A stretch of 64,000 nucleotides of DNA from Candidatus Poseidoniaceae archaeon (GCA_949372645.1 CASIAP010000002.1:62001-126000), one strand, 5' to 3'. Counted from the first letter of the stretch, positions 29,693 to 52,220 are shown. Translations and numbers: made by a program. The notes: generated by a model not told the origin, from the sequence alone.

Positions 29693-32650
29693 ATGGTGAA
29701 CAGAGTGTCCGCAACGCAAGCAACTTCCGTCAACCGACTTTTACCCGTCATTCTGGTCGTCTTACTTGTCGGCTCCATTCTCCCGATGACGGCTCCTTCA
29801 TCTCCCTCTTCAACAGTCGAACAAGTTCTCGAAAATGAGACAACAGTATTGTCATCAGGCAGTGATTGCAGTACTTGCCAATCCTATGACCTGTATCTTG
29901 ATGAGATGACTTCGGAGGCTGGCGGAGATGGTTCTATCACGACTGAAGAACCTTCAGGCTCTCACCAAGAAATGAGTGTACTTGGTGGAATTCAATTCCG
30001 TAGCAATGAGATGATTTCGGATCTCTTGGTCTATGGGCGTGATAATACTGACAAAGTTACCTTAACGCTCTACTTGAAATTCACCGGATCTACAGGCTCA
30101 TCTGCCGACATTACCTATTCATTAGAATCAGGTGGGACTGAAATCGATTCTTTTTCGGAAACACTCGATGACCCGTGTACTGGTGGCACCTTTGGAACTG
30201 GTAGTTGCTCTTGGACTTCGAACGTTATTGATTTCGAGATTCCATCAAATGGTTTCGTTGTTGAAAATGGTAAGCAACTCGAATTAGGCATTGATGCTCA
30301 AGCCACATGCGAGAGCAGTGGTGGCGGTGGACTTGGCGGCGATAGTTGTGAAGTCGAAGTCGCTTTCGGAGATGTCGAACAAACCAATGGGTTCTCCAAA
30401 ATCGAATTGAAAGCCAACGCATTAGCCGATTCCTCAGTTCGTGTTCACCGACCTGGTGCAAGTTTCACCGACCAAGAAGTCATCGAATGGTCGCCAAACC
30501 ATCGTCCTGAATTCCGTACAATGCAATTTACAGTTGATGTCCGGGATGCTTTTGGACGTGACGACATCCAAGGCGTCGATTTGGTTATGAGCACCCCAAA
30601 CGGTGCGAATTCCGAGTTCGATAAAACATTCGACGATGATGAACTTAAGTTGGATAACCAAGGGTTGATTGGTAATTATACATGGACCTATGATTCAGGG
30701 ATTAGTGCGGGAGACTACCCTTTACAACTTGAAATAAATGATGTTCAAGGACATACACTTGTCTTTGAGCACCCGGGCATTACTTTTATTGAGCATGATA
30801 TCTATCTCTCCCTTCCTTCTTCACAACCCGATACAGTTCTCATCGCTCCAGGACAAACCTCCAGTATTGAATTTTTAATCGAACATACAGGTTCGACTTC
30901 TTCCTCAATGAATATCGTGTTTGATTTGGTTGGTTCCCCTTTCCCTTCCTCATGGTCTGATCCTATATGGGACCAAGCCGGCGGATATACACTCAATGGC
31001 GGTGGCACCTTTGCTCGTCCGATTTTGTCCTTCGACGTAGTTGATGGCGACCTGACAAATGCTCCAAGTAGCATTGAAATCGAAGCTCGAGCCTATGCAG
31101 ATACTGAGAATGCCCAAAACGACCAAGTCGCCATCAAGACAATTGTCTTGTCCATCGAAGAATCAGATGTATTAGCTCCGCCTCGAATTGCTATTTTTGA
31201 AGACTTTGAACATCAAATACAAATTGCCGATTCAACACGTATTGACGCCTATGATGAGACACTTTCTCATTATGTTGATGCTGGCGATACCAAAGGCGAA
31301 TTCTTTGTTGATGTCTTTAATGCTGGATTTATTACCGATTCATTCAGATTGCGAGTCACAGACTTACCTGATGCCTGGCAATTCAAATTCTTCGATAATG
31401 TTACCGGAATGGAACTCCCTGTGGAAGGAATTTATTCCACCACTCCTGACATTGGTTCAAATCAAATCCTCACTCTACGGATGGAAATATTCCCTCCCAG
31501 TGAACGGGATGCTCAGGACATTGGTTTAGTTGAATTTTCAGTTTCCAGTACCAGTGATACCGAGCTCAGTACACAAATTGCATTCACAGTACATCGAACC
31601 TTTGGCATCTTAGTGGAAGTCATTGCCGATTCTGATGGAGGAACACTTGGTACTGTGGGCCCAGTTTCACCCGGTTCAAGCATGTATTACAACATGCGAA
31701 TTACCGATTCAAGTGAGACACTTGGTCAAACGACGTGGAGAATTAAAAATCCTGCTGAATTGGACCGAAACCTCGAAACTCCTGACGGAAACCCCGATTA
31801 TGGAACCTGGGATTATGAACTTTCGAATGGAACTGAATCAAACATTGTTGTGGTTTACTTAGAAGCAGATGAACATGTCGATATCAAACTCGATTTGACT
31901 CTGCGTTCAAAGGTCGAGGCTGGATTCCATACCGTTTATGTCCGTGTCATCGAAGAAGGTGTTGATTCGGAAGATGCGCGATACTTTGACTTACCAATTA
32001 CTGTTGAAGTCCGAGCTGATGTCCAACCAGGGCAGCTTGAAATCACAGATGCGAGCAGTGAAATCATACGTTTTGAATCGAGTGAAGAGCGCAATATCAA
32101 CTTCAAAATTGATAATCAAAACAACATCCCTCTTGATGTGGTCATCACATTGGAAGAACCAAATGGCTGGAATGGTCTCATTCGCGCATCTTCTGATCAG
32201 AACGGCGGAAGTTTCCTTCTCGTCACCCTTCCCGCATATTCGAGTAAAGATTTCTTTGTTGCCGTCAGCCCTCCAGCGAACTTGAAAGATGGTGACGAGG
32301 TCACCTTCATCCTTACAGTCACGCCAATGGATGAGGAAGTGCCCTATGATAGCGAATATACGCAAATCATGTCGTTCTCTTATCAAACTCAATGTGCAGG
32401 TGCTGAATGTCTTTTGAATGAGATAAAAGATCCAGAGCCACAAACATTGGCTCTCGGAATCGGTCTAGCATTCGTTCTTGTCTTTGCCGTTTATCGACGT
32501 GGTCAAAACGCTGGTGTAATGAACGAATCTCAGCAAAACTGGATCGAGACCGAGTTCGATTTAGGAGTCAAAACTTTGGAGCCAATCGTAGAATTCGAAC
32601 ACGAAGAAGACGACGACTTGGAACTTTTAGATGAACTTGACGATCTTTGA
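29693..32650 (+). CDS. Large secreted/type I membrane surface protein with acidic cytosolic tail
   Basis: 985-aa ORF; N-terminal hydrophobic signal LLPVILVVLLVGSILPMTAPS; C-terminal TM LALGIGLAFVLVFAVYRRG; tail EEDDDLELLDELDDL; beta-rich NEW3-like repeats. Confidence 0.82.
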   Translation: MVNRVSATQATSVNRLLPVILVVLLVGSILPMTAPSSPSSTVEQVLENETTVLSSGSDCSTCQSYDLYLDEMTSEAGGDGSITTEEPSGSHQEMSVLGGIQFRSNEMISDLLVYGRDNTDKVTLTLYLKFTGSTGSSADITYSLESGGTEIDSFSETLDDPCTGGTFGTGSCSWTSNVIDFEIPSNGFVVENGKQLELGIDAQATCESSGGGGLGGDSCEVEVAFGDVEQTNGFSKIELKANALADSSVRVHRPGASFTDQEVIEWSPNHRPEFRTMQFTVDVRDAFGRDDIQGVDLVMSTPNGANSEFDKTFDDDELKLDNQGLIGNYTWTYDSGISAGDYPLQLEINDVQGHTLVFEHPGITFIEHDIYLSLPSSQPDTVLIAPGQTSSIEFLIEHTGSTSSSMNIVFDLVGSPFPSSWSDPIWDQAGGYTLNGGGTFARPILSFDVVDGDLTNAPSSIEIEARAYADTENAQNDQVAIKTIVLSIEESDVLAPPRIAIFEDFEHQIQIADSTRIDAYDETLSHYVDAGDTKGEFFVDVFNAGFITDSFRLRVTDLPDAWQFKFFDNVTGMELPVEGIYSTTPDIGSNQILTLRMEIFPPSERDAQDIGLVEFSVSSTSDTELSTQIAFTVHRTFGILVEVIADSDGGTLGTVGPVSPGSSMYYNMRITDSSETLGQTTWRIKNPAELDRNLETPDGNPDYGTWDYELSNGTESNIVVVYLEADEHVDIKLDLTLRSKVEAGFHTVYVRVIEEGVDSEDARYFDLPITVEVRADVQPGQLEITDASSEIIRFESSEERNINFKIDNQNNIPLDVVITLEEPNGWNGLIRASSDQNGGSFLLVTLPAYSSKDFFVAVSPPANLKDGDEVTFILTVTPMDEEVPYDSEYTQIMSFSYQTQCAGAECLLNEIKDPEPQTLALGIGLAFVLVFAVYRRGQNAGVMNESQQNWIETEFDLGVKTLEPIVEFEHEEDDDLELLDELDDL

Positions 32651-32768
32651 AGATTCTACTAAATTTTTTCTTTGAAAAAGTGAGACTGCGTTGCTCTAAA
32701 CTCGTATTTCAATACGAGGTAACACCCTTTGAACTGACGCATTGTATGAACATCGCACCATTTCCCTT

Positions 32769-35700
32769 ATGAGGCATCAAACCAGCCCGACAACAGTGAA
32801 TCCAATGCGCACGACTGTTTCTCCCTCCGAGCCGCGTTTCCAATTGCAGATTCTTCGGCATCGTAATGCCTTCAAATCCCTCTCGTTAGCAGCTTTGATG
32901 TTACTCTCAACATTTGCTGCAATCCCATATATTTCGATGGATGTTCTCGCTGCTTCTGACCAAGATGGAGATGGTTTGACCTATGGTTTGGAATACCTCA
33001 TGAATACCGCTCCAAATGATCCCGACTCAGATAACGATGGATTGCCTGACGGATGGGAATGGAAATACGGCCTTGACCCCCTCTCGAGTAACGGTTTGGA
33101 TGGCGCAGTTGGTGACCCTGATGGTGATGGGATGTCGAATTTACAAGAATACTCGTATTTGCAACCTGCAAATTGGGACAGTTCCTCGACACCGAGCGTT
33201 CTTGATCTAGGGGTTTGGTGGAACGGTACAGTTCCAGTCAACGATTGGAATGAGGAAGACGCTATGCAATATAATCGGCCTGGCTGTGGTGACACTGGTA
33301 GCGACGGTGTTGGAAATGTGATTCTCTGCGATGAAGACCCTGTAGGGAACATCTGTACAAACGGTTTCGATGATGATAAAGATGGTCTTGTAGATTCTGC
33401 TGATCCAGATAACGATGGAGATGCTGATTGCTCTTCGAACGATGATGATGGCGATGGAATCGAAGATGAAGATGTTGCTGGATGGGATACTGACGGCGAT
33501 GGAATGGATGACGGTTGGGAGGCAGCAAACGGCCTTAATGCCACATCTGCTTCCAATGCCGATGGTCCGAATGGTGACCCTGATGGCGATGGTCTCAATA
33601 ACCTCATGGAATACATCAATCCGACCTGGACTACGATGTGTGGGACTTCTCCTTGCTTCCGTAATGGCCCGAATGGAGTCGTTACTGAAACTACGTCACC
33701 TTGTGACCCTGTTGCAGGGATTGGTCCAGGCGGCTGTGCTACTTTTACTGCAGAAGTCGATGGGATTACGAGTACGAATCCTCAGCGAGCAGATACAGAT
33801 GGTGACGGATTGAACGACTCCTATGAAGCATTGACACTCTTAACAGACCCGACGACTTCAGATACAGACCGTGATGGGATCGATGACGGTGTCGAAGTCA
33901 ATGGGGCTTACGGAAATCCACCTCAAGCGAGTAACCCTCGAGACAATAACACCGATGGCGATGCATTTGATGACGGTGAAGAAGATATCAATTCGAATGG
34001 AGTTTTAGATGCAGGTGAAACAGATCCGACGCGAATGGAAGATTCCGGTGATGAAGATAATGATGGGATTCAAAATTGGGAAGAGAATCTTTCTTGCACC
34101 TCATGGGATCTTGCAGATACCGACTTTGGAGGAATTAACGATGGTGATGAACGTAATGTGTCGCACGGAACGGATCCTTGTAACACGCTGATCAATTTCG
34201 AAACAACCATCGCTTCTTGGAACTCAGGCACCAACCAACTTGAACTTGCGGATGGTACCGGGTTCAATCCAAGTGGTGGAATTGGTTGGTACAACACTTC
34301 TGGAACGTGGATTGCCTTTGCTTATGCAGGTGCAGTTAATAATTTCGTGTCCGGCGTTTCAACAGCTCCTAATCCCGGTGTGACGCAAGTCTCAAACCGT
34401 AACGGTTCTTTCTGCCACACTTCAGCCACAGCCGCTGGAACGATTGGTACAACTCAACAATATTGTGATGATGATTATACTGATTCCGATGCAGACGGCC
34501 TTGCAGATTGGCAAGAGCTCCTCGGAACATTCGGCTGGTTCTCGAACCCAACGCTTGCAGATACAGATGCTGATGGTGTGAATGATTTTGATGAAGTCTT
34601 CGACAATACCGATCCGAATCAACCTTGTAGCAATCTTTTGGATGATGACTTAGACGGCTTAAACAATTATTTTGAAACGACAACAGGATGTGACCTTTCT
34701 TGGATTGGGATTTTAAACGGTTCTACGGATGTTTGGATTACCGACGATGTGTCGATTGATACAGATGCTGGAGGCGTTGCCGATCGAGATGAATACTTCG
34801 ATGGCACCAATCCTGAAAACGACCCAACAGATGACTTATTGCCTGCAGATTTCGACGGTGATGGGATTCCGGATGCAGTTGAAAACCTTACAGGTACTGA
34901 TTGGACCAACCCCGATACTGACGGTGGAGGAATGCTTGATGGTCTCGAATGCCCACAAGAGTTTTGGATTGCGAATTGTAATGGTTCAGGTTTTGACCCT
35001 TTTGACCCATCCGATGATTTAATCTCATCAGAAATTGTCTTTTGGGCAAACAACACCAGTGGTGTTGTCGATACAGATTCGATTCACCGATGGCGCCAGA
35101 GTACCAATGATTTCTACACAGGAACGACTTATGCGCATCTTAGAGAAGTCCATCCTTTCGAACCGATAATTCTTCCTTCCTCCAACATGACGCATTTGGC
35201 CGACATCACCTTTTCCAATGAAACCATTGATTGGTCGATGACTTTTCAGAATCCACCAATGGCTGGAAACCTTCCAGTTCCATATTCCCTCTCCAACCTA
35301 TCGTTTTATGTAGATCTTAGTGGGGAATTACAGCGTTCAAGTGATACACATAATATTGAAATCGTATCTGGACCGATTCAAGAAATGTATGTGCAACAAC
35401 CAGAATATTACTTTGATTGGACGGTACTTGCCTCAACTTCAGTTCCAGGTACAAACTCAACCTACGAATTGATCTTGCCTGCTTCATTCAGGAATCTCTC
35501 TCACTCTGATTCTGCACTGTTCAATGTTACGAACGCTATTCTTACTGAAGCTAGTGCCACCAATGCCTATGATAGTGCATCTGCTTTGCAAACCTTCCTG
35601 AGTGAAGGAAATGCGACCACTGATTTCAAACGTAATTACGATGGTTCAGGAATTCCTTCTGAAGAGGATTTGAGCACTGGATTGGCTCTAGCTGTATTGG

Positions 35701-38700
35701 AAGGAACCTGTTCTGAATTTAACACAGCATTTGTGACGATGGCACGCCTTGCTGGTTTACCTGCTCGGATGGTGACGGGTTTCACTGGCGGTATTTGGAC
35801 TGGTGATGGATATGCAGTTTATCCAACACATTTGTCAACTTGGGGTGAAGTGCGTCTGCAACAAAACTCAGCGAATGGGGATACTGAACTCGGATGGATT
35901 GCGTTTGATGCCTGCCCTGCTGCTGAAGAAGTTGAAATTGTCAATCAGACTCTTTCTTCCTTGACTTTTGATCGAGATGGATCCAACTCACTCAATGTAT
36001 CCGGACAATTACGCTATACCGAAAATCTGACTTCCATACCACAAAAATCCCTTACTGCATACCTTGTTCCGATGGCTCTTCAAAATGAAATCCCGGGTCA
36101 AGGAGCCGTTTTAAACTTCGAGATTGGCTCAACGATTACGCTCATAGATGGGAACTTTAGTTTGAATGGGACTCTTCTTGAATTTGAGGGTCCGGGCATG
36201 TATCGTCTTGTGGTTCAACTTGAACAATCGGGGTACGTTTCTGAATCCGGGATAATCTTTGAAGGATATATCAACGTGACAGAAGATTCAATCCTTCTCC
36301 ACACTGCTCCGAATGCTCTCAATGCTCCAATTGCAGGTGCCGGTGCTTTGACGGTTATTGAAGGTCTACTCACTTTGGAGAATATACCATCAAATAAGAT
36401 TGAAAATATTGGTGTGAATGATTTGAACCCGCCATCGGTTTGGTTATCATATACTTCCTCTGTTAACGGCTTCATCAACATGAGTAGTTTCATCAATATC
36501 GATGGTTCTTGGAGTTTTGATTTGGACCTCGACCCTCTTGAAACGAAAACGAATCTTTCAGCAACCCTCGGGTTCTCGGGATGGCAAGATACCCAAGCAA
36601 CCGACATAACTCCTGTCCAATTCCATTTGAGGCCATCGAATACTTCAATTCTAATCGATGTGCGTGATGCACCTAATTTGACTGCAACACTCGAGGGGCC
36701 ACTGGCAAACAACAGCGTTCTTATGCTGAATGACAACCTGTGGGTGAATGGTTCTGCAGTGACGACTGGAGCCTCACCAGTCTCAATGCCTGGTAATGTC
36801 TCCTTCTCAATTCGACAGAACGGCACTTCTCAGGAATGGATTCAAGTGTTTAATCGTAGTGTGAATGGACCATTTAGTCTTCAGCATTTGCTTGTGGCGG
36901 CTGATACGCAAATTGTGGCAGGGTTTTTGGAGACTCAGATCCGCTTCTTCCCGGACGCTATTGAGGCAACTGATGATGCAAACATTACTGCAGGTGGGCC
37001 TTACCTCTTGCGTGGATTGCTTAGTTTCGATGTCCAAGCAACGCCTCAATTGAGAGGGTCAGGTGCAACAGTTCTCGTCACAGCAATCGATCATCGAGGC
37101 TTGTCAACAGATCTCATGCTTTCTGGTAATTTTGACTTTTCCTTTAACGGTAATTGGTTCAATACCACCGTCGACCCTCTTACTGCAATAATGACCATCA
37201 GTTGGCTAGTAGATTCAACTCTTTTCGCGGGAGATTACAATTTTGATATTTCGTACAATGGTTCTGAGCGGTATCAGCCATCAACAGGTACCTCAACGGT
37301 CCGTATCGCTGCTGAAGTTGCATGGAATTTGAGTCTTGGGCAAGATTGGACTCACTTAGGAAATTCAAGTTATTTGTCTGGAGACATTTTTGACGCCCAA
37401 TACCCAAATATCAGTGTTCTTGGGGATAATATCACGATGCTTTCGATTACGATGTTTACCACAGAAGGTATGCCAATCGACCTTTCCCAAGGACTCTTGG
37501 ATAACACCACAGGAAGTTTCCTTCTGAACTTCACTCTACCAACTACCAGTCCCTCTGATTCATATGAATTTATTCTCAATATGGATTTTGATACAATGGC
37601 GCCTACTGGTGGAGCATATTTCCGACTGGTCGATACTTCAATCCCACCTGCAGCACCGACCCTTCCGTCTACACTTGTTGGTATTGAGTCGGAGTTTGTC
37701 GTCGAATCTGAACAACGTTCATTGATTGTTGAAGTGAATCAAGCACTCGACTTTAATTCGAAGGTTACTGATGTTGCCGATAAATCAAATGTCTCGGGTG
37801 CATCAGTTGAATACATCTTTGATTGGGGTAATACAAATGTCTCAATGGGCTTCGGCGTCTCAAACCTTGATGGAAATTCCTCTCTTCAATGGACTGCAAC
37901 AGGTATTTCACCAGGATATTACGATGTCTTGATGATTGTGTATGATGATTTGACCGATAGTCTTGGCCAAGGGAATTCACGACGGACAGAGAATTCTACA
38001 ATCGTCAACCTTACCGTACAGGTTCCAAGTGATATTCGCATCGATTCTATTCCTACCGTGGCAACAGCTGGATTGAATTTTAATGTTCTCGGACAAGTGC
38101 TCGATGGGGATAATCCCGCTCGCCCGCTTACAACTCCAGTTGAAATGTCGGCATTTTGGTTAAATAATCCTGATGAGATCTTAGTACCATCTTACCGTAC
38201 AACTTCGAATGGAACGTTCAATATGAGTATTCCAACCGACTCTTCTGGTAATGGTACTGAACGTGGCAATAAGATTTTAGTTTTGAGTGTGAATGAAGAT
38301 TCTTCACCCTTCTACCTTACCTCGAGCTCACAGAATGGAATTTTGATTATGGGGGTGAGTCAGTTTGAAAATCTTCAACCACTCAATCCAGTCACTGTGA
38401 ATCGTGGTGACACCATCAACATCACGGGACGCTTACTCGAATCCTCAAATCTCTTTGCACCCTTATCTGGATATGATGTGGACATCCAGTTCCATGAAAC
38501 ATGGTTGACAGGTACACAGACTGATGGGGAAGGCTATGCAAACTTTAGTCATCAAATACCAATGTCACACCCACTTGGATTGATTGTTGTTTCCTTGGTC
38601 TTCAATGGCTCTTCTGACTTAATGAACACTCAAGTAAACCTTTCATCCATTACCGTTCGTTCAATTACCATCATGGTCATTGATCCGATTATAGCAAATC

Positions 38701-41700
38701 CAGTTGCAGGGACTTCATTTAATGTTACAGGCACCGTAATCAGCGATAATGGTAGTGGACTTGAACGACGTGATGGAAGTGTTTTGCCCTCGAATATCTT
38801 ATTCATGCTGGATGGTCAGCCTACTGGATTTACAGTAACAGGTGGCTCAGTCGCAGCAGGTGGGTTATGGTCAGCAACCATCCTTCTTGGAGAAGGATTT
38901 GAAGCAGGCAACCATTCTCTTGACGCTTCCTATATTCCAAACGTCAACTACTACATCGGGTCAACCCAAAATTCATCGTTTGATAGTCGAGGGTTCACTA
39001 CGGTTATCTTTGTTCAACCCTCACTTGATGGCCTTGGGTCGCCGTCTTTGAATGACCGGACCGAACGAGGTAATGATGTTCAAATACAAGTTTTGTTACG
39101 GGATAATACCCTTTCCCCAGTTGCAGCACAACAAGTTGTTGTAACTCTTAAAGGGACTGATGTAAGCATCATTCTCACCACTTTTGGAAACGGAACTGCA
39201 GTCGGTGTTCTTACTGTTCCAAGCAACCAAAGTGTTGGGTTCAATGATCTCAATGTCATCTTTGCTGGAACTCCGGGCACAACAGGCTTAATCGGTTCAA
39301 ATGCATCAACACAGTTCGTTGTACTCGCTCAAACTAATATGGTGATTTCAGCCTCTCCTTCGACTCTTGTAGCTGGTGATTCATTCACTGTTGAAGGCAC
39401 ATTGTTGGATGACCTCAATCAAACGCTCGCAATCAACGGCGTCTCATCACTTGCTGTTGTTCATCTTCTTGTCGATGGTGTTCCAGTTTCCAGTGTGGAA
39501 ACAGATGCATTGACAGGAGCGTATTCGATTAGCTGGACTTTGCCAGAGGATACATCTGCAGGAGCGCACCTGATTGAAGTACGGTTCCTTGGTGGACGCG
39601 ATTGGGTAGACCCAATTAGCGTTGGTGACCCTTCGAACCCAGATTTTTATCTTCCAAGCAGTGCACAAGTTGGCTTTAATGTCAGTGTGCCAACGAAGAT
39701 TATTCTGTTGACAGCAACAGGTAATGTTGATCGAGAAGCAACGATGACGATCGAAGGTCGTTTGCTGGATTTGGTTGACTCACCATTGTCCGATCTTACT
39801 TTGGAAGTTTGGCTTGGAGGCCAATGGATGACGAATGTCAGTTCAGATGAAACGGGTCTCTTTACCGCCATCTATCCGGTTCCTGCTGATGCAGAACTTG
39901 GTCCAGTCTCGCTCGAAATACGCTTTACTGGGACTACATTCTATCTCCCGAGTAATGCTACTGGGACATGGACAATCTACAGTCCAATACTTGTTACAGT
40001 CTCTATGGAAAGCCCTGTTGCAGTTGGTCAAAACACGACCATTACAGGTTCAGTTGTCGATAACCAACTGGCTGGAATTCCTGGCCACACTGTTGAGCTC
40101 GAAGTCGAAGGCCTCATCATTGCTACAGTCGTTACCAATGCCGAGGGTGGATTTACCTTCCTCTGGAATGTACCTGATACCTTTAGTTTCGGAAACCATA
40201 CACTGTTTGCCAATGCTGATGCTCAAGGCTACTACCGTTCAAACACAGGTAACACCTCCTTCTTCTTGGCTCATCGTTCTGATGTAACGTTGATTTTTGA
40301 TGATGGTAAAGATGCTACTCGCGGTAATTTCTGGTTACTCTCAGGGCGTTTATTCGACATTGACTCAGTCAATAACGATGGTTTGAGTGAAATGCAACTT
40401 AGCCTTCGGTTAGACGATGTTGAGATTGCTACCTTGGTTACAGAATCCGATGGTAGTTGGTCAACTCCCATACTTGCAACTTCTGATTTGGCACGTGGTA
40501 ACCATCTTTTCACCATCTATTTTGAGGGGACTGAGGCCCATCTTGGAACTCAATCAACTGGCACGGCAACCGTATGGGCAGATGCTAAAATCACCATCGA
40601 TGGAACCTCTTCGAACATCGTTGTCCGTTCGGATTCAATTTCGGAACCGATCATATTGACTGGTTCAGTTTCTGAAATCGGTGGACTTGGTGAAGTATTT
40701 GACAATGTGACCCTTTATCTTGGTAATGGTTCGCAATGCTTGGCACAAAAAGATGGCGCACGCTGCCTAGATAATCTCGTCATCGATTGGTCAAATGGAA
40801 ACTTTTCACTCATCACAACAGCACCTACTTTCCTCGATGCAGGAGCACAATACTTGAACCTCGAAACGCCTCGTGACGATACCCACTACCTTAATTCAGC
40901 TAATGTTGATCATTTGGTATTTGTTAAGATTGATGCAGATATTATCGTCTCACTTGATGGTATCATTGAAGGTGAGCAAGAAAATATCGGTGGAAATATA
41001 ATTATCACTGCACAAGATACGAAAAAAGGTATCGACGGTATTCAAGTACTGATTGTTCTTTATCACGAGAATGGAACTCAACTGTCGACTCCACTCCAGC
41101 CTCTCACGAATGCTGATGGTGTTGCAGAGTTTGATTTCAAGTCTGACCCTCCATTTGGTGATACAGAGAAGTGGGGAGAATTGTACATGGAGATTATCAT
41201 CAACGACCCCCGTCTCTCACAAAAAACGTTGAATGCTTTTGCTTTAGATTCGAGTGAATCGTTTACCCCTTCATATGAGTATCAAGAAGCAGCAACTGAG
41301 ATTCCAGTATGGGTTTACATCCTCACCCTCCTTATCCTCGGATTAGCAGGTGCTGGAACCGTACTCTATCGACGTCGTCAATCCTCTGAATTGATGAATG
41401 AAGCAGCCGAGATTTTTGCCTATACAGCAGAATTATTGGCAGCTGGTGACTCTATACGTGAAGCAATCTTTACTTGCTACCAGAGTCTTTGTGCTACTTT
41501 CCAGGAGCACGGATTCTTACGCCGAGATTTCGAAACAGTTCGAGAATTCGAGATGGCGATTCGTCAAGCAATGCCTCAAATTTCCGATGAAGCATTACTT
41601 GCCCTTGACAATATGTTTGAACAGGCACGTTATGGCCGTGAAGAAATGGGTCAACAGCATCAAGATGCTGCACAACTCGCTTTGGAACGAATGGGCCAGG

Positions 41701-41735
41701 AAATCTCTTCACTTGCAGCTATTCCTTCACGTTGA
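32769..41735 (+). CDS. Giant surface protein: DxDxDG calcium-binding/TSP3-like repeats, transglutaminase-like domain, Ig-like repeats, TM helix, DUF4129-like cytosolic domain
   Basis: Nearly 3000-aa ORF (track start 32742 is TTG; ATG at 32769). N-terminal signal; many DSDNDGLPDGWE/DPDGDG motifs; GTCSEFNTAFVTMARLAGLPARMVTGF ... THLSTWGEV ... GWIAFDACP; TM VYILTLLILGLAGAGTVLYRRR; C-term REAIFTCYQSLCATFQEHGF...TVREFEMAI. Confidence 0.88.
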   Translation: MRHQTSPTTVNPMRTTVSPSEPRFQLQILRHRNAFKSLSLAALMLLSTFAAIPYISMDVLAASDQDGDGLTYGLEYLMNTAPNDPDSDNDGLPDGWEWKYGLDPLSSNGLDGAVGDPDGDGMSNLQEYSYLQPANWDSSSTPSVLDLGVWWNGTVPVNDWNEEDAMQYNRPGCGDTGSDGVGNVILCDEDPVGNICTNGFDDDKDGLVDSADPDNDGDADCSSNDDDGDGIEDEDVAGWDTDGDGMDDGWEAANGLNATSASNADGPNGDPDGDGLNNLMEYINPTWTTMCGTSPCFRNGPNGVVTETTSPCDPVAGIGPGGCATFTAEVDGITSTNPQRADTDGDGLNDSYEALTLLTDPTTSDTDRDGIDDGVEVNGAYGNPPQASNPRDNNTDGDAFDDGEEDINSNGVLDAGETDPTRMEDSGDEDNDGIQNWEENLSCTSWDLADTDFGGINDGDERNVSHGTDPCNTLINFETTIASWNSGTNQLELADGTGFNPSGGIGWYNTSGTWIAFAYAGAVNNFVSGVSTAPNPGVTQVSNRNGSFCHTSATAAGTIGTTQQYCDDDYTDSDADGLADWQELLGTFGWFSNPTLADTDADGVNDFDEVFDNTDPNQPCSNLLDDDLDGLNNYFETTTGCDLSWIGILNGSTDVWITDDVSIDTDAGGVADRDEYFDGTNPENDPTDDLLPADFDGDGIPDAVENLTGTDWTNPDTDGGGMLDGLECPQEFWIANCNGSGFDPFDPSDDLISSEIVFWANNTSGVVDTDSIHRWRQSTNDFYTGTTYAHLREVHPFEPIILPSSNMTHLADITFSNETIDWSMTFQNPPMAGNLPVPYSLSNLSFYVDLSGELQRSSDTHNIEIVSGPIQEMYVQQPEYYFDWTVLASTSVPGTNSTYELILPASFRNLSHSDSALFNVTNAILTEASATNAYDSASALQTFLSEGNATTDFKRNYDGSGIPSEEDLSTGLALAVLEGTCSEFNTAFVTMARLAGLPARMVTGFTGGIWTGDGYAVYPTHLSTWGEVRLQQNSANGDTELGWIAFDACPAAEEVEIVNQTLSSLTFDRDGSNSLNVSGQLRYTENLTSIPQKSLTAYLVPMALQNEIPGQGAVLNFEIGSTITLIDGNFSLNGTLLEFEGPGMYRLVVQLEQSGYVSESGIIFEGYINVTEDSILLHTAPNALNAPIAGAGALTVIEGLLTLENIPSNKIENIGVNDLNPPSVWLSYTSSVNGFINMSSFINIDGSWSFDLDLDPLETKTNLSATLGFSGWQDTQATDITPVQFHLRPSNTSILIDVRDAPNLTATLEGPLANNSVLMLNDNLWVNGSAVTTGASPVSMPGNVSFSIRQNGTSQEWIQVFNRSVNGPFSLQHLLVAADTQIVAGFLETQIRFFPDAIEATDDANITAGGPYLLRGLLSFDVQATPQLRGSGATVLVTAIDHRGLSTDLMLSGNFDFSFNGNWFNTTVDPLTAIMTISWLVDSTLFAGDYNFDISYNGSERYQPSTGTSTVRIAAEVAWNLSLGQDWTHLGNSSYLSGDIFDAQYPNISVLGDNITMLSITMFTTEGMPIDLSQGLLDNTTGSFLLNFTLPTTSPSDSYEFILNMDFDTMAPTGGAYFRLVDTSIPPAAPTLPSTLVGIESEFVVESEQRSLIVEVNQALDFNSKVTDVADKSNVSGASVEYIFDWGNTNVSMGFGVSNLDGNSSLQWTATGISPGYYDVLMIVYDDLTDSLGQGNSRRTENSTIVNLTVQVPSDIRIDSIPTVATAGLNFNVLGQVLDGDNPARPLTTPVEMSAFWLNNPDEILVPSYRTTSNGTFNMSIPTDSSGNGTERGNKILVLSVNEDSSPFYLTSSSQNGILIMGVSQFENLQPLNPVTVNRGDTINITGRLLESSNLFAPLSGYDVDIQFHETWLTGTQTDGEGYANFSHQIPMSHPLGLIVVSLVFNGSSDLMNTQVNLSSITVRSITIMVIDPIIANPVAGTSFNVTGTVISDNGSGLERRDGSVLPSNILFMLDGQPTGFTVTGGSVAAGGLWSATILLGEGFEAGNHSLDASYIPNVNYYIGSTQNSSFDSRGFTTVIFVQPSLDGLGSPSLNDRTERGNDVQIQVLLRDNTLSPVAAQQVVVTLKGTDVSIILTTFGNGTAVGVLTVPSNQSVGFNDLNVIFAGTPGTTGLIGSNASTQFVVLAQTNMVISASPSTLVAGDSFTVEGTLLDDLNQTLAINGVSSLAVVHLLVDGVPVSSVETDALTGAYSISWTLPEDTSAGAHLIEVRFLGGRDWVDPISVGDPSNPDFYLPSSAQVGFNVSVPTKIILLTATGNVDREATMTIEGRLLDLVDSPLSDLTLEVWLGGQWMTNVSSDETGLFTAIYPVPADAELGPVSLEIRFTGTTFYLPSNATGTWTIYSPILVTVSMESPVAVGQNTTITGSVVDNQLAGIPGHTVELEVEGLIIATVVTNAEGGFTFLWNVPDTFSFGNHTLFANADAQGYYRSNTGNTSFFLAHRSDVTLIFDDGKDATRGNFWLLSGRLFDIDSVNNDGLSEMQLSLRLDDVEIATLVTESDGSWSTPILATSDLARGNHLFTIYFEGTEAHLGTQSTGTATVWADAKITIDGTSSNIVVRSDSISEPIILTGSVSEIGGLGEVFDNVTLYLGNGSQCLAQKDGARCLDNLVIDWSNGNFSLITTAPTFLDAGAQYLNLETPRDDTHYLNSANVDHLVFVKIDADIIVSLDGIIEGEQENIGGNIIITAQDTKKGIDGIQVLIVLYHENGTQLSTPLQPLTNADGVAEFDFKSDPPFGDTEKWGELYMEIIINDPRLSQKTLNAFALDSSESFTPSYEYQEAATEIPVWVYILTLLILGLAGAGTVLYRRRQSSELMNEAAEIFAYTAELLAAGDSIREAIFTCYQSLCATFQEHGFLRRDFETVREFEMAIRQAMPQISDEALLALDNMFEQARYGREEMGQQHQDAAQLALERMGQEISSLAAIPSR

Positions 41736-48023: not shown

Positions 48024-51000
48024 TTAGCCTTGGTAAGCAATCCAAGTACCAGATGCAGAATCGTAATACGATAAACTTCCATCAGCGGCTTTGGACCAAT
48101 TGACACCAGCTTCTTCCCATTGCTGAGTTTCTTCTGCAATAGCGGGGAGTTGCTTTGAGGATTGGAATCCCATGTTTGAATCTGTAGCAGAATCAGTATA
48201 GTTTTGGGCTGCAAATTGTGAACTTTCAACAACAGCTTCCTGGCTCTTTCGAACGACAAGCAGGGCGCCGAGGCCACAAAGTGCTAAGAGGGCAAGAATT
48301 GCGTAAACAAGTCCGCCGCCACCGCCCTCAACTTCTTGTTCAGTTCGAGCAGCATCTTGTGGATAGTAATCATAGGTGTCCGAAATACCATCTCCATCTG
48401 AGTCCGTCGTTTCATTACGGTCCAGAGGGAAATCATCTTCAGCATCATTGATTCCATCTTTGTCAGTATCCATCTGAGTCAATGCACAACCATCATCGAA
48501 AACAATAACTCCAGTTGGAGATAATGGGCAGTCATCGTCAATATTTTTGACACCATCTTCATCATCGTCTTTTTGATACTCTGAACACCCGTCAACGTCA
48601 ATGCCATGAGATTCATCGGTATCCGGGCACAAATCCTTGTGATTTTTTATTGAGTCCTTATCTTGGTCAATTTGAGACTCAGCGCAACCTTCTGAATTAA
48701 CTTGCTCTCCAGCAGGTGTGGCTGAACATATATCGATGGTATCATCAATCATATCGTTATCAGCGTCTTTTTGATTGTCAGCACATCCTGATGCATCCGT
48801 GATAAGGCCAAGTTCGGTGTCAGGACAGTCATCAACATCATTCATGATGGCATCATCGTCATCATCTCGTTGAGCATCAGAACAACCATTGGAATCCGCT
48901 TCATCTTCGTTCCCAGTCATTGGGCAAAAGTCGTCCATGTCATTGACGCCATCTTCATCTGTATCACGTTCAGCAGATGAACAGCCAACGCCATTGACGA
49001 GGGTTGATGGTGACGTTGTTGGACATTCATCCAGTTGGTCATTGATTCCATCTTCATCGGTGTCACGTTGCATATCTGCACATCCAGCACTGTCAACAGC
49101 AGAGCCGAGTGGTGTCATTGGACAAGCATCGAATGCATCCATGATTCCATCATTATCGCCGTCTTCTTGAGAGCCTGAACATCCTGTAGCATCGACGTTC
49201 TCGCCTGCGGGTGTTGTTGGACAAGCATCGAGGTCATTGGTGACTCCATCAAGATCATCGTCCTTCTGTTGTTCTGAGCAACCCATTGAATCAACGGATT
49301 GACCTGCGGGTGTGTTCAAACAATGGTCAGGAGTATCGCCGTTTGGATTATCACCATAGCTGTCTCCATCTGCATCAAACCATTGTGTTGGTTCAGTAGG
49401 GAATCGGTCAGCCATGTTTCCATTTTGGTTATCTCCGTATCCATCACCATCGGCATCTTCCCATTGAGTGCCGTCCATTGGGAAAGCATCTGGATCGGTG
49501 CCAGCTTGGTTGTCTCCGTATCCATCACCATCAGTATCTTCCCATTGAGTTGCGTCATTCGGGAATGCATCGCCGTTGTTTCCGGTTGGGTTATCGCCAT
49601 AGCCATCACCATCGGTGTCGGTCCATTGGGTTGAATCAGTAGGGAATTCGTCAGGAGTGGTTCCAGTTGGATTGTCTCCATATCCATCACCATCTTGGTC
49701 AGCCCATTGAGATGAATCGGTAGGGAAAGCATCACCGTTGTTTCCAGTTGGGTTATCTCCGTATCCATCACCGTCTTGGTCTACCCATTGGCTTGAATCA
49801 GTAGGAAATTCATCAGCATAATTTCCTGCTGCGTTATCTCCGTATCCATCACCGTCTTGGTCTGCCCATTGGGTTGAATCATACGGGAATGCATCAGAGG
49901 CATTACCTGTGGGGTTGTCTCCATAGCCGTCTCCATCTTGGTCATCCCATTGGGAGCTGTCGAGTGGGAATGCATCGGGTGAATTGCCAGTTGGGTCATC
50001 GCCGTATCCATCGCCATCCATGTCGGAGTATTGACTGCTGTCTGCCGGAAAAGCGTCGATGAGGTCATTGTATCCATCGCCGTCGGAGTCTTTCTGAGAA
50101 AGTTCACAGCCATACATGTCGACTGATGCACCAGCAGTTGTGTTGGCACATAGGTCATATTCATTGGCAACTCCATCATTATCATCATCGATGGTCAATG
50201 AGAAGCAATCACTGTCACCAATCAATTGAACACTTGTATTCGAATAGAGATTGACGACTGCGCAGTAAATACCACTCATGTTTGGAGTCGCATAGGTGAA
50301 TGTTGGCATGCTCATGTTTTGTGCTGTTGCAGCAAAGGTACTGAGGGTAGAAGTAGCCAGTGATGCACCTGCACTATCAGTGACTAATATTTGGTATTTG
50401 TAATCGTCTCCAGTGACAAGGTCGCTGCCTTTGACCATGACATCATTGGTGGCTGAAGTTGAACTTGTTGAATATGAATCAATCAACATGGTCGGCAATT
50501 GTGGAATGAACTCATCATCATGAACGCCAATAAACCCTTCATTGGAAGTCAGATTAACTTGAGTGTTATTGTATGAAAGGAAAGTAACAAACCCGTGATC
50601 ATTCATGGTTGTTGGTCCATTCCATGTGATTTGCCACGATTCTGAGGTGGCCGTATCGGTCGTAAACGTGACGTTCATTTGGTCAATCATTGAGGCTGTG
50701 AGTGCCATGTCGACATCCATCGAAGTCGTGTAATTGTTATCAAATTCGACCATATCATAGACAAGCCACCATACTGTATAATCGGTGTATGTACTGAGGT
50801 TTGTTGCATATATTTCACCTGTTGTTGAAGAGGTTACGTAAGCTTCGAGCATTTCGATGTAGATGCAATCTCCATCTTCATCGAGCATTGCTCCAGTAGC
50901 GTCTTTCAACACTGATACAGAACAGTATTCAGATTCTTGCATTACAGGGCTTGCCGATGTTGCATTGGCCATCATGGTCGTTGCTGTAGCACTGAAGTTA

Positions 51001-52220
51001 CCATTGCTCGGCATGGACCAACTTTCAGTGTCATTCAAGAAAAACTGAACATTTGAATGGTTGTAGAGGTATGTATCTCCAATGGTTAATCCCGTGAATT
51101 CAAGCATTGAATCGGTTGTTCCATTCATGGTCACAGTGACGGACTGGAAACTTTGCCCTCCGCCTGGTAAATTTGTAGTTAATGAGATATCATAATTATT
51201 CGTAAGAACACCTCCCCCAAATGATGCGTAATGATATACTTTGAAGTATGCTGTGAAATTTGATAGGGCTGTATATGCTGCTGCTTCATTATCTGAAGAA
51301 GAAGACATTGAAACAAAACTATTGAAAGAAAGTAAACTACCAGTAGCATCTTCTAAAGTTGCATCAATATCGCCACCTGTGTGCAAGAATGTTAAATTGA
51401 AGTAGTATGTGACCCCACTCATCATTTGAATTTCGTAGTAATCATCATTGGCAACTCCAGCAGAATTTATTTCGACACTTAATCCAGTACAAGCAACCGG
51501 CAATATGGAGGCTAAAGTTGCAGTAGCAGGTGTATCATTGGGTTCTAAGATATCCGGAGCATTACCGTTTCCAGTACATGGGCTTGGTATTGCGCTCCCA
51601 TTACCACCCGTTCCGTTGCCACCGGTTCCGTTGCCAGTTGAGGTGCTGAATGTCCAGATGTCAAGGGTATAGAATCCATAACCATCATAACGGTATATTT
51701 GCACATAAACAGTCCCTCCATGTGGAGTTGCAGAATTATTTGTGCTTACTGATTCGGGGTTAAACATATACGAAGAATCCATCGAATTTCCATTCACATC
51801 GTAGATTGCAAGATCAAAATCATTTGTATATGTGGAACCGTTTGCAGAAGTATATGTTGTGTTAAAGGAAAGTTGTAGCGCTAATCCTTCATTGGCTGCA
51901 AGGTTGACTGCGAGCCAATCTTCATCATCATTGACATCGAGTTCTCCATAGTCAGAAATATACACTGGTGCGAATCCAGAGAAATTGACAATAGTACTTG
52001 TATTTATTCCTGACATGGTGTCTGGTAGGTCCATGGATGACCCCAAATCGTTTTGATTTGCACCGACTGCAGACACGCTTGGCGCGGTCAAAGTAAGCGT
52101 GGTTACGACAAGCATCAAGGCCAAGAGAATGGAACTCGATTTGTTAGTATTGGTAGAACTCAAGGAAGAGGACATACACCAACGACTGAGTGGTAGTTTA
52201 AGACACTCTCTACTCAGCAT
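48024..52220 (-). CDS. Large secreted/anchored surface protein with 27-aa DGDGYGDN/DAFP repeats and TSP3-type repeats, TM helix and short WW-like cytosolic C-terminus
   Basis: 1398 aa; N-terminal signal SSSILLALMLVVTTLTLTAPSVSA; nine DxDGDGYGDN units; DACPTTPAGENVDATGCS-type repeats; TM LVYAILALLALCGLGALLVVRK. Confidence 0.88.
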   Translation of the reverse strand: MLSRECLKLPLSRWCMSSSLSSTNTNKSSSILLALMLVVTTLTLTAPSVSAVGANQNDLGSSMDLPDTMSGINTSTIVNFSGFAPVYISDYGELDVNDDEDWLAVNLAANEGLALQLSFNTTYTSANGSTYTNDFDLAIYDVNGNSMDSSYMFNPESVSTNNSATPHGGTVYVQIYRYDGYGFYTLDIWTFSTSTGNGTGGNGTGGNGSAIPSPCTGNGNAPDILEPNDTPATATLASILPVACTGLSVEINSAGVANDDYYEIQMMSGVTYYFNLTFLHTGGDIDATLEDATGSLLSFNSFVSMSSSSDNEAAAYTALSNFTAYFKVYHYASFGGGVLTNNYDISLTTNLPGGGQSFQSVTVTMNGTTDSMLEFTGLTIGDTYLYNHSNVQFFLNDTESWSMPSNGNFSATATTMMANATSASPVMQESEYCSVSVLKDATGAMLDEDGDCIYIEMLEAYVTSSTTGEIYATNLSTYTDYTVWWLVYDMVEFDNNYTTSMDVDMALTASMIDQMNVTFTTDTATSESWQITWNGPTTMNDHGFVTFLSYNNTQVNLTSNEGFIGVHDDEFIPQLPTMLIDSYSTSSTSATNDVMVKGSDLVTGDDYKYQILVTDSAGASLATSTLSTFAATAQNMSMPTFTYATPNMSGIYCAVVNLYSNTSVQLIGDSDCFSLTIDDDNDGVANEYDLCANTTAGASVDMYGCELSQKDSDGDGYNDLIDAFPADSSQYSDMDGDGYGDDPTGNSPDAFPLDSSQWDDQDGDGYGDNPTGNASDAFPYDSTQWADQDGDGYGDNAAGNYADEFPTDSSQWVDQDGDGYGDNPTGNNGDAFPTDSSQWADQDGDGYGDNPTGTTPDEFPTDSTQWTDTDGDGYGDNPTGNNGDAFPNDATQWEDTDGDGYGDNQAGTDPDAFPMDGTQWEDADGDGYGDNQNGNMADRFPTEPTQWFDADGDSYGDNPNGDTPDHCLNTPAGQSVDSMGCSEQQKDDDLDGVTNDLDACPTTPAGENVDATGCSGSQEDGDNDGIMDAFDACPMTPLGSAVDSAGCADMQRDTDEDGINDQLDECPTTSPSTLVNGVGCSSAERDTDEDGVNDMDDFCPMTGNEDEADSNGCSDAQRDDDDDAIMNDVDDCPDTELGLITDASGCADNQKDADNDMIDDTIDICSATPAGEQVNSEGCAESQIDQDKDSIKNHKDLCPDTDESHGIDVDGCSEYQKDDDEDGVKNIDDDCPLSPTGVIVFDDGCALTQMDTDKDGINDAEDDFPLDRNETTDSDGDGISDTYDYYPQDAARTEQEVEGGGGGLVYAILALLALCGLGALLVVRKSQEAVVESSQFAAQNYTDSATDSNMGFQSSKQLPAIAEETQQWEEAGVNWSKAADGSLSYYDSASGTWIAYQG
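49324..50024 (-). repeat. Coding tandem repeat, about 81-bp unit, nine copies of the DGDGYGD core
   Basis: Translated unit DQDGDGYGDNPTGNxxDAFPxDSxQWx (27 aa); DNA diverged between copies. Confidence 0.9.

Follow-up and report, generated by a model that had tools for sequence, protein, structure and literature searches.

A giant cell-surface protein of Poseidoniales archaea with a degenerate transglutaminase domain and a DUF4129 tail

What does an archaeal protein of about 3000 amino acids (aa) do with a transglutaminase (TG) fold placed between two long stretches of ectodomain? The question is raised by a gene on the plus strand of a 64,000-nucleotide stretch of DNA (here called the window) from a Candidatus Poseidoniaceae archaeon (GCA_949372645.1, CASIAP010000002.1:62001-126000). 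The Poseidoniales are a major group of ocean-surface archaea. The open frame begins at an ATG at 32769 (2988 aa) or an in-frame TTG at 32742 (2997 aa) and stops at 41735. A first-pass annotation, made from the sequence alone, described a signal sequence, an N-terminus rich in DxDxDG motifs, a TG-like domain with an intact Cys/His/Asp triad, beta repeats, a transmembrane helix and a C-terminal domain resembling DUF4129, and it proposed that the protein cross-links or cleaves surface polymers in a calcium-dependent manner. The open frame, Pfam, hydropathy and the orthologues agree with the overall layout (Table 1), and we regard the domain order as established at the level of sequence. The proposed activity fared less well.

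The TG-like fold is real. Transglut_core (E 3e-11) and DUF4129 both score above the Pfam cut-off in the window protein, and each was found in 30 of the 30 orthologues tested. An AlphaFold model of residues 62-1190 has a mean predicted local distance difference test score (pLDDT) of 63, with the TG region mostly at 80-95, and the top solved structures that Foldseek matches to it are 6g49 and 6g4h, the periplasmic domain of TgpA (E 2e-11 and 7e-11); the match spans 300 columns with a template-modelling score (TM-score, target) of 0.66. The letters of the supposed triad also lie where they had been reported, C at 35709, H at 35829 and D at 35907, and Cys990 is invariant, but the His and Asp are not conserved. 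In the alignment to TgpA (6g49), the TgpA motif 'DAHAWVE' faces 'dlttWvE' in the family, which puts the column of the catalytic His at residue 1032, two positions ahead of the invariant Trp1034, rather than at His1030. Among 81 full-length orthologues (80 fetched plus the window's own), column 1032 holds T40 S18 A12 G4 N4 R3 and no His, column 1030 holds D40 H25 N15 A1, and column 1056 holds E38 D33 N4 Q4 F1 Y1; Glu1036 is invariant along with the Trp. A second, profile-based alignment of 110 TG sequences, many of them near-copies or shared with the 81, has no His at column 1032 either; its Asp and second-Cys columns are biased, since the scan pattern used for collection covered them, and only its His-column result is used here.

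Judged from these alignments, the TG domain, which has kept its fold, lost its catalytic His and not kept its Asp, is most probably a pseudoenzyme. Because the triad residues are not conserved in the orthologues, calcium-dependent cross-linking or cleavage is unlikely. One could still picture an active calcium-dependent surface transglutaminase or protease from the above-threshold Transglut_core match, the invariant Cys990, the TgpA fold and the C, H and D letters near the expected places in this one sequence. However, the absence of His from the catalytic column in both sequence sets, the variability of His1030 and Asp1056 and the appearance of a new invariant Cys1058 make such an enzyme very improbable. 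Furthermore, purified TgpA was active in the presence of EDTA (PMC3507681), and so the nearest relative lends calcium dependence no support. The apparently dead TG domain is a warning against annotating such proteins as transglutaminases.

The fate of the remaining Cys can be guessed at. The window protein has no Cys between residues 746 and 2666 other than 990 and 1058, and the simplest reading would be that the catalytic Cys has been re-used, so that Cys990 is probably locked in a disulfide with Cys1058 inside the dead domain. The TG domains of outgroup Thermoplasmatota proteins read 'EAHAFVEVY...RI[ND]LGG' or 'ECHAFVE[ML]Y...'; they retain the Cys and His, have a Gly two residues after the Asp position and have no equivalent of Cys1058 there. 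A pseudoenzyme may thus have evolved, by way of forms like these outgroup domains, from a TG that still had its Cys and His. It might also be argued that Cys990 is still chemically active outside the canonical triad, perhaps by forming a covalent surface bond or a redox switch with Cys1058, since both Cys are invariant, as are Trp1034 and Glu1036. However, the Trp and Glu are ordinary TG-core positions and a conserved replacement for the His is not visible, and we find this idea quite improbable.

Whatever its function, the giant is conserved across the order, as judged from genome sequences. The TG region was matched in 143 of 146 genomes (two families, 20 of 21 genera), almost always once and usually in a frame of about 3000 aa, a spread that rules out a chance open frame. 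The three genomes without a match need not represent losses, because the contigs concerned are missing or broken: one (G066) also has neither flanking gene, and the other two (G119 and G015) have the locus interrupted by contig ends or split into fragments. Among named genomes, a scan gave 217 confirmed stretches, of which 80 were kept; their titles read Poseidoniales, Poseidoniaceae, Poseidonia or the less specific Euryarchaeota archaeon or uncultured euryarchaeote, and they include the MG-II chromosome CM001443.1. The relatives that carry names belong to Ca. Poseidoniales (Marine Group II). The open frames of these 80 range from 2914 to 3195 aa, and in the 81 full-length orthologues the length from the first Met has a median of 2982 and a coefficient of variation of 1.2%. 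Kept as a single copy of constant length by essentially all of the order, the giant is a strong candidate core component of the cell surface.

The ectodomain on either side of the TG module consists of two different materials. All 16 D-x-[DN]-x-DG motifs fall within the first 1000 residues, with none later, and the TSP3_bac profile matches five stretches at 17.2 bits, under its curated cut-off of 25. Conservation in this part is about 0.7-0.8 for most 60-residue blocks of residues 61-480, and many Asp and Cys are invariant; together with the cytosolic tail (0.76 over 2881-2940) it forms the conservation peak, and the TG region and array lie at about 0.4-0.6. The TSP3-like part would presumably bind calcium. 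The array that follows also has only sub-threshold Pfam matches (Big_3_5, CarboxypepD_reg and, at 29.3 bits against a cut-off of 32.8, MG2). A model of residues 2000-2997 has a mean pLDDT of 84 and a predicted template-modelling score of 0.38, as for beads on a string, and resembles macroglobulin (MG) and complement arrays with low global TM-scores. Its beta sandwiches are nearer 100 aa than the 110-130 aa first reported. The reported richness in N-x-S/T sequons is genuine: the window protein has 74, compared to 37 expected from composition, and the 81 orthologues average 84.5 compared to 34.4, an approximately 2.5-fold excess, with sequons about 2-4 times as frequent as the reversed motif region by region. 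An STT3 match is present in the window's genome, and the sequon excess predicts that the giant is probably N-glycosylated. An STT3 match (G000:C11:43166-43957, locus L257) lies within an open frame of 3193 aa that may encode a further giant.

The C-terminal end suggests how such an ectodomain might be handled. By hydropathy the protein has a single hydrophobic segment at the N-terminus and a single transmembrane helix; after the helix comes a basic stretch, which should place the DUF4129 domain in the cytosol. The MoxR-type ATPase and DUF58 partners that the first-pass annotation had suggested looking for were found on another contig of the window genome, in a DUF4350-MoxR-DUF58-transmembrane operon that has no DUF4129 gene. 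The same genome encodes another DUF4129 giant, which is 2629 aa long and lacks a TG domain. Just upstream of that TG-less giant is a 581-aa protein (G000:C10, L015 135-1880) in which TSP3-like motifs surround a long tract of Gly-Gln dipeptides. MoxR and DUF58 were present in 97 of the 97 order genomes sampled, mostly two of each; DUF4129 giants occur throughout the order, and most genomes keep two. In the Poseidoniales loci the giant is not linked to MoxR/DUF58, the genes being scattered.

A phylum-wide search with a tail profile found shorter ectodomain-transmembrane-DUF4129 proteins. In 15 of 18 outgroup Thermoplasmatota loci, a gene for an immunoglobulin (Ig)-ectodomain-transmembrane-DUF4129 protein adjoins MoxR and DUF58, 14 of them with DUF4350 in between; in the other (L147) MoxR and DUF58 are linked and DUF4350 gave no match. 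As for the remaining three, L142 ends at a contig edge and L132 and L135 have no partner within the stretch fetched. The gene orders thus establish an ancestral operon linkage, and the giant would have arisen from the DUF4129 member of such a DUF4350-MoxR-DUF58 operon. A literature search on DUF4129, MoxR and DUF58 together found nothing. We also considered that the giant is a fusion of an outgroup upstream TSP3 gene with the DUF4129 gene, and rejected this because class-level DUF4129 proteins already have TSP3-like motifs ahead of their TG. In class-level relatives (L138 2553-5507, L139, L140, L149) and in L141, the gene directly upstream of the DUF4129 gene encodes a TSP3-repeat protein of about 970-1060 aa.

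The order has a second partner set. It comprises a DUF4350-2/DUF58-2 pair and MoxR2, which in one genome is separated from the pair by about 45 kb. In L170 and L171, MoxR2 is flanked by genes for an IF-2-like GTPase and a ParA-like protein (by Pfam for L171, by a similar layout of open frames for L170). In the tail tree the TG giants join the TG-bearing outgroup proteins (98/88), and in the DUF4350 tree the class-level TG-bearing outgroup joins set 2 (96/93). Therefore the likely pairs, proposed with moderate confidence, are the TG giant with set 2 and the TG-less giant with set 1.

Because the TG His is lost and the tail probably works with MoxR/DUF58, the giant looks more like a surface fibre or sensor without enzymatic activity than like a cross-linking enzyme. 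We lean towards a non-catalytic, calcium-loaded, probably N-glycosylated surface fibre that a MoxR/DUF58 machine assembles or remodels by acting on its tail. From the tip inwards, this single-pass fibre of fixed length would consist of the TSP3-like region, the TgpA-like pseudo-TG module, the MG/Ig array, the transmembrane helix and the cytosolic DUF4129 domain. MoxR ATPases work with vWA partners as chaperones in the remodelling of dedicated complexes (PMC7159879, PMC9976466). In a similar way, a MoxR AAA+ ring and the DUF58 protein may engage the tail and use ATP to assemble, activate or re-set the ectodomain complex. The ectodomain would contact particles, other cells or envelope partners, making a role in adhesion or particle attachment plausible and a sensory one conceivable. 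A bolder version, which we think unlikely, is an order-wide pseudo-TG receptor in which the disulfide-locked TG and the calcium-loaded tip of the approximately 3000-aa fibre sense or hold an external ligand and MoxR/DUF58 pulls or re-sets the tail across the membrane, with two parallel systems per cell. The ancestral MoxR/DUF58 tie suggests a way, open to experiment, in which a giant ectodomain might be handled by an archaeal ATPase.

Several observations weigh against an ATP-handled fibre. Present-day coupling is something we infer from ancestry, as the giant is not beside MoxR/DUF58 in Poseidoniales. In the DUF58 tree, support for joining set 2 to the outgroup is weak (46/50); in the MoxR tree, sets 1 and 2 come together instead (88/90), and long branches were flagged in the partner trees. 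A search of the window's own genome, 83.7% complete, did not turn up set 2. Much of the TSP3-like part is modelled at low confidence. The scattered loci would also suit a purely structural adhesin or S-layer-like element, whose tail is now a mere membrane anchor without an ATPase partner, as would the fixed length, the sequon richness and the TSP3-like repeats; moreover, Poseidoniales thrombospondin genes have been noted before and linked to adhesion (PMC6461757), in a paper whose main text does not contain the words transglutaminase and surface protein. However, the tail ranks with the best-conserved parts (about 76% for residues 2881-2940 versus about 50% in the array) and MoxR and DUF58 are kept in all sampled genomes, and we rate a mere anchor as rather unlikely.

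How does the favoured fibre compare with known systems? TgpA-like proteins have a C-terminal DUF4129, as does the giant. In Pseudomonas aeruginosa the tgpA gene is PA2873, and its companions PA2875 and PA2874 are MoxR-type and DUF58 genes. TgpA is an essential inner-membrane transglutaminase that is co-transcribed with those two (PMC3507681), and it and the bifidobacterial PFNA operon (PMC8430577) are the closest studied parallels. The giant and TgpA (6g49, 6g4h) have the beta plus TG module in common. Unlike TgpA, the giant has lost the triad, has scattered partners and reaches about 3000 aa, with TSP3-like repeats before the TG and an array of about 1800 aa after it; a multi-transmembrane N-terminus is also missing, as the window protein has no Pfam match to TgpA_N/DUF3488 and only one N-terminal hydrophobic segment. 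The PFNA operon of Bifidobacterium (pkb2, fn3, MoxR aaa-atp, duf58, tgm) likewise unites a large repeat ectoprotein, MoxR, DUF58 and a TG in one system, and its FN3 protein has been proposed to act in adhesion and ligand binding (PMC8430577). In contrast, the giant is archaeal, its ectodomain repeats and TG form one polypeptide, the TG is degenerate and no kinase was seen. The Thermoplasmatota outgroup proteins in DUF4350-MoxR-DUF58 operons (L133-L150) have the same tail and the same ectodomain-transmembrane-tail order, and some also have a TG (class-level L137-L139 and L149; f16 L142 and L147); they differ in size (about 1000-2000 aa), in being encoded in a linked operon and in that the TG, where present, keeps its Cys and His. 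Finally, the individual beta sandwiches have the fold of those in alpha-2-macroglobulin and complement MG arrays, whereas the low global TM-scores, the sub-threshold MG2 match and the lack of a visible thioester domain set the giant apart.

Table 1. Features of the giant gene and its upstream neighbour (window coordinates)
Feature	Residues	Coordinates	Strand	Basis
Giant TSP3-like / pseudo-TG / MG-Ig array / transmembrane / DUF4129 gene		32769..41735	+	one intact open frame
Sec-type signal sequence with long basic n-region	~43-72	32868..32957	+	hydrophobic segment 43-61; common to 20 orthologues
DxDxDG / TSP3-like calcium-type repeats with conserved Cys	73-736	32958..34949	+	motifs, conservation
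TgpA-like periplasmic module (beta domain plus TG fold)	~770-1065 (approximate)	35049..35936	+	Foldseek
Transglut_core domain	938-1057	35553..35912	+	Pfam, 30/30 orthologues
Invariant nucleophile position	Cys990	35709..35711	+	C in 81/81 and 110/110
Catalytic His of the first-pass annotation, not conserved	His1030	35829..35831	+	D/H/N in orthologues
Canonical catalytic-His column, never His	Ser1032	35835..35837	+	alignments
Variable Asp position	Asp1056	35907..35909	+	E/D/N/Q/F/Y in orthologues
Second invariant Cys, proposed disulfide partner of Cys990	Cys1058	35913..35915	+	C in 80/81, remaining one X
MG/Ig-like beta-sandwich array, ~100 aa each, sequon-rich	1076-2850	35967..41291	+	AlphaFold model, sequon count
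Single transmembrane helix	2856-2874	41307..41363	+	hydropathy
Cytosolic DUF4129 helical domain (predicted)	2912-2981	41475..41684	+	Pfam, conservation, helices in model
Upstream 985-aa protein, always adjacent, possible partner		29693..32650	+	20/20 syntenic loci

The neighbourhood of the giant is also conserved. In all 20 wide loci it is preceded by the 985-aa protein and followed by a Rad3-like helicase. The 985-aa protein, which gave no Pfam match and no match to the outgroup upstream proteins, has a signal, a C-terminal transmembrane segment (916-934), a short acidic tail and, judging from its sequence, a probable beta-rich ectodomain. Elsewhere in the window (48024-52220) is a gene for a 1398-aa protein with TSP_3 stretches slightly under the Pfam cut-off. 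The window genome also encodes a second TG protein (L016 5343-6974), which is 543 aa long, has an N-terminal zinc-ribbon-like match, contains the Cys and a His in an 'HAW' context and adjoins TrkA- and TrkH-looking genes.

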